This document shows positions 4,560 to 9,284 of a stretch of DNA of 64,000 nucleotides, piece by piece. Origin of the DNA: Caulobacteraceae bacterium (GTDB lineage: Bacteria; Pseudomonadota; Alphaproteobacteria; Caulobacterales; Caulobacteraceae); NCBI GenBank assembly GCA_019746095.1, contig JAIESL010000035.1:1-64000 (forward strand), read 5' to 3'. Below the pieces are notes generated by a model. The model made no database searches and was not told the DNA's origin. It was given only the letters and a program-made list of their open reading frames with translations. Every line of letters begins with the position of its first letter. Position 1 is the stretch's first letter. Made by a program: the position numbers and the translations under genes.

Positions 4560-5918
4560 TCAGTCGGCCGTTACGACGTCTCGATCACCCGGGCCCGCCG
4601 CCGGATCCGGCGGTGCAGCCAATGCCTTGGGTCCGGACCCGAGCGCGGAGTGCAGCGCCGCCTGGTCGAGTTCCCCTTCCCAGCGGGCGACGACCAGGGT
4701 CGCGACCGCATTGCCCACGAAATTGGTCAGCGCCCGGCACTCACTCATGAAGCGATCAATGCCGAGGATCAGCGCCATCCCGGCAATCGGCACGGAAGGC
4801 ACCACGGCGAGGGTCGCTGCCAGGGTGATGAAGCCCGCGCCGGTAATGCCGGCGGCCCCCTTGGAACTGAGCATCGCCACAAGCAGGAGCAGGATCTGGT
4901 CCTGCAGGCTCAGCTCGATGTTCATCGCCTGGGCAATGAACAGGGCCGCCATGGTCATATAGATGTTGGTGCCGTCCAGGTTGAAGGAATAGCCCGTCGG
5001 GACGACGAGGCCGACCACGGACCGCTTGGCCCCCGCGCGCTCCAGCTTCTGCATAAGGCTCGGCAGCGCCGCCTCTGACGAAGAGGTGCCGAGCACCAGC
5101 AGCATCTCTTCCTTGAGGTAGGAAATCAGCTTGAAGATGGAGAAGCCGCTGGCCCAGCAGACCGCGCCCAGCACCCCGATCACAAAGACGAAGGACGTCA
5201 GGTAGAAGGTCGCGATCAGGGCGGCGAGGTTGGCGATCGCCCCGATGCCGTAAGCACCGATCGTGAAGGCAAATGCGCCGAAGGCCCCGACGGGGGCCGC
5301 CTTCATCAGGATCGCGACCAGCTTGAACATGATCTGGCTCAGGGCGTCGAGCGCGCGGTGCACCGGTGCCGCGGCATCTCCGACCATAGCCATGGCAATC
5401 CCGAACAGGATGGCCACGAACAGGGTCTGCAGGATGTTTCCCTCGGAGAAGGCGCTGACCAGCGTGGTCGGGATGATGCCCATCAGGAAGCCGACGATAG
5501 TCGTGTCATGGGCCGCTGCGGTGTACTGCGATACCGCCCCTGCGTTCAGCGACGCGGGGTCGATGTTCAGCCCGCGGCCCGGCTGGACCACATTGGCGAT
5601 GACGAGGCCGATGATCAGGGCAAGGGTCGAGAAGAAGAAGAAATAGGCAAAGGCCTTGGCCGCCACCCGGCCGACCTTGCCCAGATCGCGCATACCGGCG
5701 ATGCCGGTGGCAATCGTCAGAAAGATCACCGGGGCGATGATCATCTTGACCAGCTTGATGAAGGCGTCGCCCAGCGGCTTCAGGCTCTCGCCGAAGTCGG
5801 GCCAGAAATGACCGACCGTCCCGCCCGCCACGATCGCCAGCAGAACGATGAAATACAGGCTGCGATAGAAGGGTCGGCGCGCGACGGGCGCTTCGCCGGT
5901 GGCGGCTGGATGATACAA
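4560..5918 (-). CDS. dctA: dicarboxylate/amino acid:cation symporter (DctA family)
   Basis: This 452-aa protein has about eight membrane helices plus two re-entrant hairpins of the DAACS family. The serine-rich hairpin is [12 protein letters not shown], the ion/substrate motif is NLDGTNIYM, hairpin 2 contains [10 protein letters not shown], and the last helix holds [16 protein letters not shown] with the conserved Asp/Asn substrate ligands. It imports C4-dicarboxylates (or Glu/Asp) with Na+ or H+ across the inner membrane. The start is a TTG just after AGGGGAGG. It is divergent from a DctB/DctD-type two-component system, which supports a dicarboxylate substrate. A glutamate transporter is the alternative. 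It heads an apparent operon with a TonB receptor and a secreted hydrolase. Confidence 0.9.
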
Positions 5919-5985
5919 ACGACCTCCCCTGGGGTCCCTGCCGGACTCCGGTCAATGCCACGCTCTGACTGGCGCGATCACGTCT

Positions 5986-6013
5986 AGTATCGACACCCTG
6001 AAGAGCAGGACAA
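5986..6013 (-). promoter_or_regulatory. candidate sigma-70-type promoter of dctA
   Basis: On the minus strand TTGTCC and GATACT are separated by 16 bp, about 70 bp upstream of the dctA TTG start. I looked for a sigma-54 -24/-12 element (GG-N10-GC in TGGCAC-N5-TTGC context) across 5919-6088 and found only poor matches. The match is visual and weak. Confidence 0.3.
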
Positions 6014-6088
6014 GACATCGCCCTAGCCGACATTGCGCCTTGAACAGGAAGGATTATTTCAGACTGCTCTTCTGATTTCCTGCTAATT

Positions 6089-6106
6089 TGTGCGATAATC
6101 CGCACA
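6089..6106. promoter_or_regulatory. DctD-type upstream activator palindrome 1
   Basis: TGTGCGATAATCCGCACA is an 18-bp inverted repeat with arms TGTGCG(G)/(C)CGCACA. It lies in the divergent dctA-dctB intergenic region, about 170 bp upstream of the dctA start. It resembles the tandem operator architecture known for rhizobial dctA. Confidence 0.6.
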
Positions 6107-6121
6107 CACCTGTTGGACTTT

Positions 6122-6139
6122 TGTGCGCATTTCCGCATA
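6122..6139. promoter_or_regulatory. DctD-type upstream activator palindrome 2
   Basis: TGTGCGCATTTCCGCATA repeats the layout of the first palindrome 33 bp away, about three helical turns, so both face the same side of the helix. It ends eight bases before the chosen dctB ATG. Occupancy would therefore also repress dctBD expression. Confidence 0.55.
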
Positions 6140-6147
6140 GTCGTTGG

Positions 6148-7953
6148 ATGCTCGGTGCGGCCTCTTCCCTGACCCAGTGGCGACTGTTCGGCGCTGTCTG
6201 GATTCTGGTCGCGATAGGGGTCGTCCTGACGAGCGGCGAGCTCGCAAGGCGAGACGCAAGGGAGTCCGCAGAGCGGCAGGCGGCAACCGCGAGCGCGCTC
6301 CATGCCGCCGTGCTGCGCAGCGAACTGGAACGGCACAGATCCCTGCCCATGGTACTGGCCCAGGACCCCGATCTCGCGGCCCTGCTGAGCCGGCCGGATC
6401 CGTCCAAGGCCGCGCTTCTGAACCGGAAGTTCGAGTTCCTCGCGAAGGATGTTCGCGCAGCCGCAATTTATGCGCTCGATGCCGATGGACGCACCCTCGC
6501 AGCCAGCAACTGGCGTCTGCCGACCAGTTTCGTTGGGTCCAGCTACCGGTTCCGCCCCTATTATTTCGACGCGATGCGAAACGGCCAGGCGGCCTTCTTC
6601 GCCCTCGGCACCGTCAGCGGGAGGCCCGGCCTCTATCTGTCGCGGCGGGTCGACGACCGGTCCGGTCGCCCCCTCGGGGTGATCGTGGCCAAGGTCGAGT
6701 TCGATGCCCTCGAGGCTGACTGGCGTGCCTCGGGCGAACCGACCTATGTCACAGACGCCGACGGTGTGGTGGTGATCACCACGGTGCCGGCCTGGCGATT
6801 CCGCACGGCGCGACCGCTGTCGGCCGATCTGCGGCAGCGGCTGGCAGCGACCCAGACGGCGGGCTCGACCATTCCGGCTCCCCTCCCCTTTGACACCGAC
6901 GGCACCGCACTGGTGCGGGTTTCGTCGGACATTCCGGCCGGGATGTATGCGGTCGCCTCCGACCCCATTCCCGACACCGGCTGGCAACTGAACCTGCTCG
7001 CTCCGTCCGGCGAGGCCATATCGCGCGCGGTCGCCCTTGCCCGCTGGCTCGGGGCCCTGACCGTGGCCCTGCTGGCCGCCCTGACCGGAATCCTGCTGCG
7101 GCGCCGCCAGCGCGCGAGGGCCCGGGCGACCGAGGCCGAACAGGCCCGCATCGAACTCGAGCGGCAGATCGACCTGCGGACCGCCGAACTGCGATCCACC
7201 AATGATCAGTTGAGCCACGAGATCGAGGAACGGCGGCGACTCGAGACCGTTCGTCATGACCTCCAGGACGAACTGATCCAGGCCAACAAACTGGCCACCC
7301 TGGGCCAGATTGCCGCCGGGGTGGCGCATGAGATCAACCAGCCCATCGCGGCGATCCGCACCCACGCCGACAGTGCTGCGGTACAGCTGCAGCGCGACGA
7401 CAGCGTCGGTGCGCTTCGATCGCTCGCCAATATCGACCGGCTGACCGAACGGGTCGGGGTCATCACCGATGAACTCCGAGCCTTTTCGCGCAAGACGCGG
7501 TCAGAGACCCTGGCCGTGGGTGTCGACGGTGCCATCGACGGTGCGCTGTTGCTGGTGGCCGGACGTCTGAGGGAGAAGGGTATCGTCCTCGAACGACGCC
7601 GCGCCGCTGCTGGCCTTGCGGTCCGCGCCGAGCGTAACCGACTGGAGCAGGTGGTTCTGAACCTGCTCCAGAACGCGGTCGAGGCCCTGGACGGGGTCGC
7701 GGATCCCGTTGTCTCCCTGGGGGTCGAGGTCAAGGGCAAGCATGTCACCATCCGGGTTACCGACAACGGCCCCGGGGTCGCACCGACCGTCCGAGACCGG
7801 CTGTTTACCCCGTTCACGACGGACAAGCCCGACGGCCTGGGTCTCGGTCTGGTCATCAGCCGGGATATCGTCGCGGCCTTCGGCGGTGAACTGTCGCTCG
7901 AACCTTCCGCCACCGGCGCGCGGTTCGCGATCCGTCTGGCGAAGGCGTCATGA
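6148..7953 (+). CDS. dctB: C4-dicarboxylate sensor histidine kinase (DctB type)
   Basis: The track begins at a TTG (6088), but that would put two regulatory palindromes inside the gene. I take the ATG at 6148 (601 aa), just before the first membrane helix (WRLFGAVWILVAIGVVL). A periplasmic PDC/Cache-like sensor domain spans about 35-290, and helix 2 follows (WLGALTVALLAALTGILL). Then come a coiled coil rich in Glu/Arg, the HisKA box AHEINQP (His394), the N box NLLQNAVEAL, and the ATP-lid motifs DNGPGV and GLGLGLVIS. This is the DctB architecture: it senses periplasmic dicarboxylates and phosphorylates its partner. The stop overlaps the regulator start by four bases (ATGA). No clear ribosome binding site precedes the ATG. 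Confidence 0.85.
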   Translation: MLGAASSLTQWRLFGAVWILVAIGVVLTSGELARRDARESAERQAATASALHAAVLRSELERHRSLPMVLAQDPDLAALLSRPDPSKAALLNRKFEFLAKDVRAAAIYALDADGRTLAASNWRLPTSFVGSSYRFRPYYFDAMRNGQAAFFALGTVSGRPGLYLSRRVDDRSGRPLGVIVAKVEFDALEADWRASGEPTYVTDADGVVVITTVPAWRFRTARPLSADLRQRLAATQTAGSTIPAPLPFDTDGTALVRVSSDIPAGMYAVASDPIPDTGWQLNLLAPSGEAISRAVALARWLGALTVALLAALTGILLRRRQRARARATEAEQARIELERQIDLRTAELRSTNDQLSHEIEERRRLETVRHDLQDELIQANKLATLGQIAAGVAHEINQPIAAIRTHADSAAVQLQRDDSVGALRSLANIDRLTERVGVITDELRAFSRKTRSETLAVGVDGAIDGALLLVAGRLREKGIVLERRRAAAGLAVRAERNRLEQVVLNLLQNAVEALDGVADPVVSLGVEVKGKHVTIRVTDNGPGVAPTVRDRLFTPFTTDKPDGLGLGLVISRDIVAAFGGELSLEPSATGARFAIRLAKAS

Positions 7954-9284
7954 GTTTTCAGGTCCTGAACCGCGTCGCGCTGATCGACGACGACGACGCC
8001 TTCCGTCAGGCCCTGGCGGAGCGGCTGGAATTGGACGGGCTGGGCGTCGCCGCCTTTGCCTCGGCGGAGGCCGCGCTCAAGGTGGTGAATGAGCGGTTCG
8101 AGGGCGTGGTCGTCACCGACCTGCGCATGCCGGGCATGGACGGCCGGCAGCTCGTCGAACGCCTCAATGGTCTCGATCCGGACCTGCCGGTGGTGATGAT
8201 GACCGGCCATGGCGACATTGCCGAAGCCGTCGATTCGATGAAGCGCGGGGCCTATGATTTCCTGGCCAAACCCTTTGCGCCGGAACGGCTGATCGGGACG
8301 CTCGGCCGGGCGCTCGAGAAGCGCGCCCTGGTGCTGGATAACCGCCGCCTCGCCGCCCAGGCCGCCGACGACGAGGGTTCGATCCCGCTCAGTGGTTCCA
8401 GCCGGTCTGTCGAGGCGCTCCGGGCCGCGATCCACAGGCTGGCGGACGCCGGGGTGGACGTGCTCATCGAGGGTGAAACCGGCTCCGGCAAGGAGGCTGT
8501 CGCGCGCGCTATCCACAATGCTGGACGACGGCGACTGCGTCCCTTCGTGGCGGTCTCCTGCGCCGCCCTGCCGGAGAGCGGGCTGGAAAGCCTGCTTATG
8601 GGCGACGCCGTCGGCCCCTCGGGCACCTTCCGGCGACGCCAGGGACAGGTCGAACAGTCACATCAGGGCACCTTGTTCCTGGATGAGATCGATCTGGCCC
8701 CACGCGCCGCCCAGTTGCTGCTGCTGCGGGTGCTGGAGGAACGCGAGGTTCATCCCGTCGGGGCAATGGAGCCACATGCGCTGGACCTGCGCATCCTCGC
8801 GGCGACCAAGGGGGACCCGGTCGAGGCCGTGGCGGGCGGGCGTCTGCGCGAGGATCTCTACTACCGGCTCAACGTCGTCCGCCTGCGGACGCCGCCCCTG
8901 CGCGAGCGCCGGGATGACGTGCCCCTGCTCTTCGCGCGCTTTCTGGGTCGCGCGGCAGGCCGGCTGAACCGCGAAACGCCCCCCATAGATCATGCGATCC
9001 GACGACGCCTGCTGGAGCACGACTGGCCCGGCAACCTGCGGGAGCTGGCGAACTACGCCAGCCAGGTGGCGGTCGGTCTGGCACCGCTTGCCCCGGACTC
9101 CCTGTCCGAGGACGGGCTGGTATCCCGCGTCCAGGCCTATGAGGCCGAGCTGATCCGGGAAGCCCTGACGCGGCACCGCGGCGACATCCGCCAGGTCACG
9201 GCTGAACTCAGGATTCCCCGCAAGACCCTGTACGACAAGATGGCCCGGCACGGCCTCAATCCGGCCAGCCACCGCAACCGCTAG
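7950..9284 (+). CDS. dctD: NtrC-family response regulator (DctD-like) lacking the GAFTGA loop
   Basis: This 444-aa regulator has a receiver domain (1-120; phosphoacceptor Asp57 in VVTDLRMPG, Lys in FLAKPF). An AAA+ domain follows (about 145-370; Walker A GETGSGKE near 175, Walker B TLFLDEID, arginine-finger region YYRLNVV). A Fis-type helix-turn-helix ends it (RKTLYDKMARHGL), very like DctD. In place of the sigma-54 contact motif GAFTGA, the loop after ESLLMGD reads AVGPSGTF. Family members without GAFTGA act with sigma-70 or as repressors, so sigma-54 activation is unlikely here. It is translationally coupled to the kinase gene. Confidence 0.85.
   Translation: MSFQVLNRVALIDDDDAFRQALAERLELDGLGVAAFASAEAALKVVNERFEGVVVTDLRMPGMDGRQLVERLNGLDPDLPVVMMTGHGDIAEAVDSMKRGAYDFLAKPFAPERLIGTLGRALEKRALVLDNRRLAAQAADDEGSIPLSGSSRSVEALRAAIHRLADAGVDVLIEGETGSGKEAVARAIHNAGRRRLRPFVAVSCAALPESGLESLLMGDAVGPSGTFRRRQGQVEQSHQGTLFLDEIDLAPRAAQLLLLRVLEEREVHPVGAMEPHALDLRILAATKGDPVEAVAGGRLREDLYYRLNVVRLRTPPLRERRDDVPLLFARFLGRAAGRLNRETPPIDHAIRRRLLEHDWPGNLRELANYASQVAVGLAPLAPDSLSEDGLVSRVQAYEAELIREALTRHRGDIRQVTAELRIPRKTLYDKMARHGLNPASHRNR

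Follow-up and report, generated by a model that had tools for sequence, protein, structure and literature searches.

The dct locus of the window (the whole 64-kb stretch of DNA analysed here) encodes a DctD regulator without the GAFTGA motif in its L1 loop, next to a divergent dctA gene without a recognisable sigma-54 promoter and behind a tandem pair of DctD-type sites that has been kept. DctD and dctA are the standard model of enhancer activation through sigma-54. We consider it probable that phosphorylated DctD now activates a sigma-70-type dctA promoter from the old enhancer, a rewired form of the sigma-54 switch. Enhancer-binding proteins (bEBPs) that lack GAFTGA are already known; the value of this case lies in the paired change of activator and promoter with the enhancer retained. 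In the open-access literature, outside which most subscription papers lie, we found no report of a DctD lacking GAFTGA or of a dctA switch from sigma-54 to sigma-70. Loop, promoter and enhancer can be traced across more than 90 loci; these include orthologues from either side of the switch, in hosts that keep sigma-54 for other genes. The role of an AAA+ protein at a sigma-70 promoter and the change of sigma factor itself thereby become directly testable.

DctD and its L1 loop

The dctD gene (7950..9284, + strand) encodes a response regulator of 444 amino acids with the REC, AAA+ and Fis-type HTH domains of the DctD family, as read from the translated open reading frame and from Pfam matches to Response_reg, Sigma54_activat, AAA_lid_14 and HTH_8. 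The AAA+ ATPase motifs are intact in both the translation and the conservation table: Walker A reads GETGSGKE (8472..8495, +) and Walker B reads GTLFLDEID (8667..8693, +). GAFTGA, the L1 motif of sigma-54-dependent bEBPs, is missing. The L1 loop (SLLMGDAVGPSGTFRRR; 8589..8639, +), placed by homologue alignment and by a stretch of low pLDDT, reads LMGDAVGPSGTFRRR at the position where DctD homologues read LFGHEAGAFTGAQKRR, and the change is in frame. When all collected homologues were aligned, the window DctD showed GP-SGT in the GAFTGA columns, with the Phe/Thr pair absent and one residue deleted; thus, a shifted but intact GAFTGA was ruled out. The initial annotation had credited this protein with good Walker A and B motifs and a loop devoid of GAFTGA, and both readings held.

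Close relatives from independent assemblies carry GPSGA, GPTGA, GPAGA, GPGGP, GVTGP or GASGA at the same position, and this similarity among the nearest relatives rules out a sequencing or frameshift artefact. The Pfam Sigma54_activat model scored the window DctD at 165 bits despite the missing motif; domain matches alone are a poor basis for annotating such proteins as sigma-54-dependent.

Among 89 non-canonical DctDs, the Walker A Gly and Lys, the Walker B Asp, R300, R306, sensor II Arg364 and the phospho-acceptor Asp57 (also present in the window protein) were 100% conserved, and the Walker B Glu was conserved in 92%. L1 residues that are invariant among canonical DctDs dropped to as little as 29% in the non-canonical set. 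The conserved ATPase residues suggest that the AAA+ ring still binds ATP and perhaps hydrolyses it. Loss of the L1 motif with retention of the ATP site is the combination that characterises NtrC of the Rhodobacter capsulatus type. The AlphaFold model of DctD had a mean pLDDT of 88.5, with its weak spots at the L1 tip (residues 221–230, mean 63) and in the linkers. Its closest solved structures in a Foldseek search were bEBPs, with NtrX first and NtrC1 among the others, and these added nothing on function.

The dctA promoter and its upstream sites

The dctA gene (4560..5918, − strand) encodes a C4-dicarboxylate symporter (NCBIfam NF002461, 659.5 bits, cut-off 513) and starts at a TTG that is conserved in the alignment together with its ribosome-binding site (AGGGGAGGTCGTTTG; 5916..5930, −). 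It diverges from the dctBD operon, a linkage conserved across relatives. The Cache-type kinase of that operon, dctB (6148..7953, +), has the dCache-HisKA-HATPase architecture of a sensor kinase by Pfam. Its listed open reading frame opens at a TTG at 6088, just ahead of the DctD sites described below, which would put both sites within the gene. We take the ATG at 6148 as the likely start, because in the promoter alignment it lines up with a CAT that relatives mostly conserve.

At every locus whose DctA homologue reached 60% identity, 27 with a canonical DctD and 67 with a non-canonical one, we scored the 300 bp ahead of dctA against TGGCACG-N4-TTGC, with GG and GC mandatory and a maximum of 11. 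The GAFTGA-bearing loci served as the positive control, since a stringent sigma-54 pattern was too weak in the window's own genome (five matches versus three in the reversed control). All 27 canonical loci scored 10 or 11 of 11, at sites between −84 and −173, and none of the 67 non-canonical loci reached 10/11 (27/27 versus 0/67, Fisher 4 × 10−24, a value uncorrected for kinship; the association depends on a single main transition in evolution rather than on many). The best candidate in the 300 bp upstream of the window dctA, a GG-N10-GC at 6/11 (shuffle p ~0.69), did not amount to a sigma-54 site, and the whole 64 kb held none at 10/11 or above. Thus, dctA in the window has no −24/−12 promoter by this measure.

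The gene for sigma-54 itself has been kept. Among 50 relatives tested, 48 had rpoN, as did the window's own genome, and both absences were in metagenome-assembled genomes, so the switch did not follow from loss of sigma-54 and a lineage-wide loss was ruled out as its cause. We recognised four clear bEBPs in the own genome. Two of them carry GAFTGA, FlbD and a protein that we take to be TacA; NtrX and DctD are without it. In NtrX (L003:1012-2433, contig C101; NCBIfam 746 bits) the corresponding stretch reads LFGEEGHDGRPRKIG. The PF00158 matches of this genome included no NtrC.

Retention of rpoN would suit a degenerate loop that contacts sigma-54 in an altered way, at a non-consensus dctA promoter that our scan missed, as would the near-canonical GAFSGA and GAFPGA loops of some clade members. 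However, the loop varies freely, to the point of complete deletion, and single changes, of Phe and Thr especially, mostly abolish activity (Francke et al., PMC3162934). The best sites of the non-canonical loci all scored 9 or less, for the most part no better than chance, and did not share a position; only four loci reached 9/11, and three of these four sites lie at most 11 bp from the start codon. We therefore regard altered contact with sigma-54 as very improbable.

In Brevundimonas, a conserved sigma-70-like candidate core replaces the −24/−12 promoter. Across 13 aligned Brevundimonas-type loci, little is conserved between the palindromes and dctA; the exceptions are a CA pair, a TTG and a GATACT-like block. 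The window has TTGTCC-N16-GATACT here (6013-5986, −), made up of a −35-like TTGTCC (6008..6013, −), whose TTG is invariant in the 13 loci, and a −10-like GATACT (5986..5991, −). This pair is weak, at 8/12, and predicted from conservation only; a generic sigma-70 scan upstream of the window dctA returned nothing at its 9/12 cut-off. GATACT recurred in four of six more diverged loci, and Sphingopyxis has TTGACC-N18-TAAATT or a close variant at the corresponding place. Overall, a TTG core with xAxxxT at −10 spacing was present at 46/67 non-canonical versus 1/27 canonical loci, and about one third of the non-canonical loci were without a TTG...AnnnT core. The initial annotation had seen no convincing sigma-54 promoter before dctA, which the scan bore out. 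It had also thought a sigma-70-like promoter possible, and here the conserved TTG and GATACT-like block speak for it and the failure of the generic scan against it.

In canonical loci such as L055 and L049, the −24 box TTGGCA matches the −35 hexamer TTGACA at five of six positions. Given this match, one or two changes may separate a sigma-54 promoter from a sigma-70 −35 element, which offers a candidate evolutionary route.

Upstream of the weak predicted core stand the two DctD-type palindromes. UAS1 (TATGCGGAAATGCGCACA; 6122..6139), identified by alignment, is separated from the likely dctB ATG by 8 bp, and UAS2 (TGTGCGGATTATCGCACA; 6089..6106) lies 33 bp from UAS1, about three helical turns. 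Nowhere else in the 3.05-Mb genome is there a match with one mismatch or none. The TGCG-N6-CGCA palindrome was kept at 24/27 canonical and 53/67 non-canonical loci, and most near relatives have equivalent palindromes near −219/−186.

Between these sites and the core lies a degenerate IHF-like element (TTCAAGGCGCAAT; 6032..6044, −), weak in the window but conserved in position among relatives; many loci retain such an element at a constant spacing. The IHF consensus is WATCARN4TTR. When the 46 non-canonical loci with a TTG core were aligned on the TTG, an A-tract and AATACAA-N4-TTA, near that consensus, appeared 20–45 bp upstream, and this had not been a criterion for their selection. The commonest spacing from CAR to TTG in non-canonical loci was 29 bp; in canonical loci the IHF-like element was mostly 27 or 36–37 bp ahead of TGGCA, two distances about one helical turn apart. 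A likely IHF-alpha gene in the own genome scored 118.9 bits, just below the cut-off of 120.25. IHF stimulates dctA of Rhizobium leguminosarum, according to the account of Sojda 1999 given in PMC9827912.

Because UAS1 ends so close to the probable dctB start, DctD probably represses its own operon through this site. The main rival to activation of dctA extends this role, making DctD a repressor or autoregulator only, which blocks dctB, or dctA until it is phosphorylated, with dctA running from an activator-free sigma-70 promoter. The position of UAS1 is indeed repressor-like, and some GAFTGA-less relatives do repress, among them Caulobacter NtrC, which both represses and activates (PMC10274813). 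However, the palindromes lie upstream of the dctA core and do not overlap it, and that core is weak, as would suit a promoter that needs an activator. Repression alone would also leave idle the conserved ATPase residues and the IHF-like bend, which keeps a fixed distance from the −35 element. We judge a repressor-only DctD unlikely, at roughly one chance in six.

Proposed mechanism and known systems

In the activation that we favour, DctB would phosphorylate DctD in response to C4-dicarboxylates, and DctD would bind both palindromes of the tandem, whose centres lie near −118 and −151 relative to a dctA transcription start predicted near 5979 on the − strand. From these sites it would activate a sigma-70-type RNA polymerase at the TTG-like/GATACT promoter, rather than sigma-54 polymerase at a −24/−12 element. 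The ancestral layout of tandem sites, IHF bend and core promoter would thereby be kept, with the core promoter exchanged and the sigma-54-contacting tip of L1 lost. From these sequence features we infer that DctD works through DNA looping, needs ATP, acts directly on sigma-70 polymerase and does so without rpoN.

The closest counterpart is the rhizobial DctB/DctD-dctA system of R. leguminosarum and Sinorhizobium meliloti, which shares with the window its protein domains, the TGCG-N6-CGCA sites upstream of dctA and an IHF-like site in between. The divergent arrangement of dctA and dctBD also occurs in the rhizobial-type relatives examined. Unlike the rhizobial system, the window has neither GAFTGA nor −24/−12, and a −35/−10-like core stands in their place.

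The proposed mechanism resembles that of NtrC of R. capsulatus, a bEBP with a deleted L1 that acts on sigma-70 polymerase and requires phosphorylation and ATP binding (PMC10274813). That protein belongs to another regulon and another lineage, whereas the window DctD retains a visible sigma-54 enhancer layout and has intact orthologues that permit a before-and-after comparison. NtrC of Caulobacter crescentus shares the bacterial family, the L1 deletion and the use of sigma-70 promoters, and ATP hydrolysis was predicted for it (PMC10274813). It is, however, a different gene, and the only regulators of this type reported for the C. crescentus genome are NtrC, NtrX, FlbD and TacA. Other GAFTGA-less regulators also work at sigma-70 promoters (PMC10274813, PMC3162934). 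NtrX, TyrR, HupR, DhaR and VpsR are bEBP-like AAA+ proteins without the canonical motif (PMC10274813, PMC3162934); TyrR, DhaR and HupR are listed as sigma-70-dependent, and Thr-to-Pro is a frequent change within GAFTGA (Francke et al., PMC3162934). None of these five is a DctD orthologue. We know of no documented promoter swap at their targets of the kind seen at dctA.

Spread and ancestry of the non-canonical loci

We collected 80 homologues from the named scan and 56 more loci from 119 same-family and 289 same-class genomes. None of the Caulobacteraceae DctDs in this set had the canonical motif; they read GAFSGA, GAFPGA, GAFAGA, GAFNGA or GAFDGA, or were degenerate or partly deleted. In the alignment, the loop tip was gone from sphingomonad DctDs, in some of them completely. 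A maximum-likelihood tree built with the loop columns removed united 78 non-canonical DctDs in one clade (SH-aLRT 98; a quick search without bootstrap, with some long branches and uncertain inner details); they come from Caulobacteraceae, Sphingomonadales and a few rhizobia. This clade was nested among GAFTGA-bearing, dctA-linked DctDs of Rhizobiales, Roseomonas types and Bordetella types. The canonical/non-canonical label needs two changes on the tree, the second involving three GAFPGA proteins that are not beside dctA. With a single clade and only two label changes, loss of GAFTGA is best interpreted as a single event, after which the loop decayed. Many independent losses were unsupported, one of the two changes falling in loci without dctA.

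What the initial annotation had suspected in a single case, a dct system that has moved off sigma-54, is supported as a clade-wide change: 67 loci have lost the loop motif and the −24/−12 promoter and mostly kept the DctD sites, set against 27/27 intact pairs. Loop states inside the clade run from GAFSGA, GAFPGA and GAFAGA to full deletion. More tentatively, and somewhat short of an even chance, the whole enhancer module of tandem sites, IHF bend and catalytically intact AAA+ ATPase may have passed from sigma-54 to sigma-70 by exchanging only the core promoter and L1, and may now act through a DNA loop to drive a housekeeping promoter, possibly still with ATP hydrolysis. If so, the clade records intermediate stages of that passage in its GAFSGA, GAFPGA, GP-SGT and deleted loops.

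The dct locus is patchy, occurring in 6 of 17 same-genus genomes with the window's own counted in. Such patchiness is compatible with a takeover of dctA by another alternative sigma factor or activator, leaving DctD as a decaying remnant. This seems highly unlikely, since the REC, ATPase and HTH residues and the upstream sites are constrained across the non-canonical set and dctA has stayed linked to dctBD.

A few rhizobial and Brucella members fell inside a Sphingomonas subgroup of the tree and look transferred. A separate, second GAFPGA group from other Alphaproteobacteria (L193, L196, L202, L203), not adjoining dctA, may have lost contact with sigma-54 independently. DctBD pairs that lack the L1 tip and have no neighbouring dctA were found in Sphingomonas and Rhizobium/Brucella-type genomes (L057, L066, L067, L074, L075, L077, L078, L081, L084, L085) and may represent a paralogue that moved between orders. 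At L057, the upstream region on the opposite strand holds, past a porin-like open reading frame, an MFS permease that by eye resembles KgtP.
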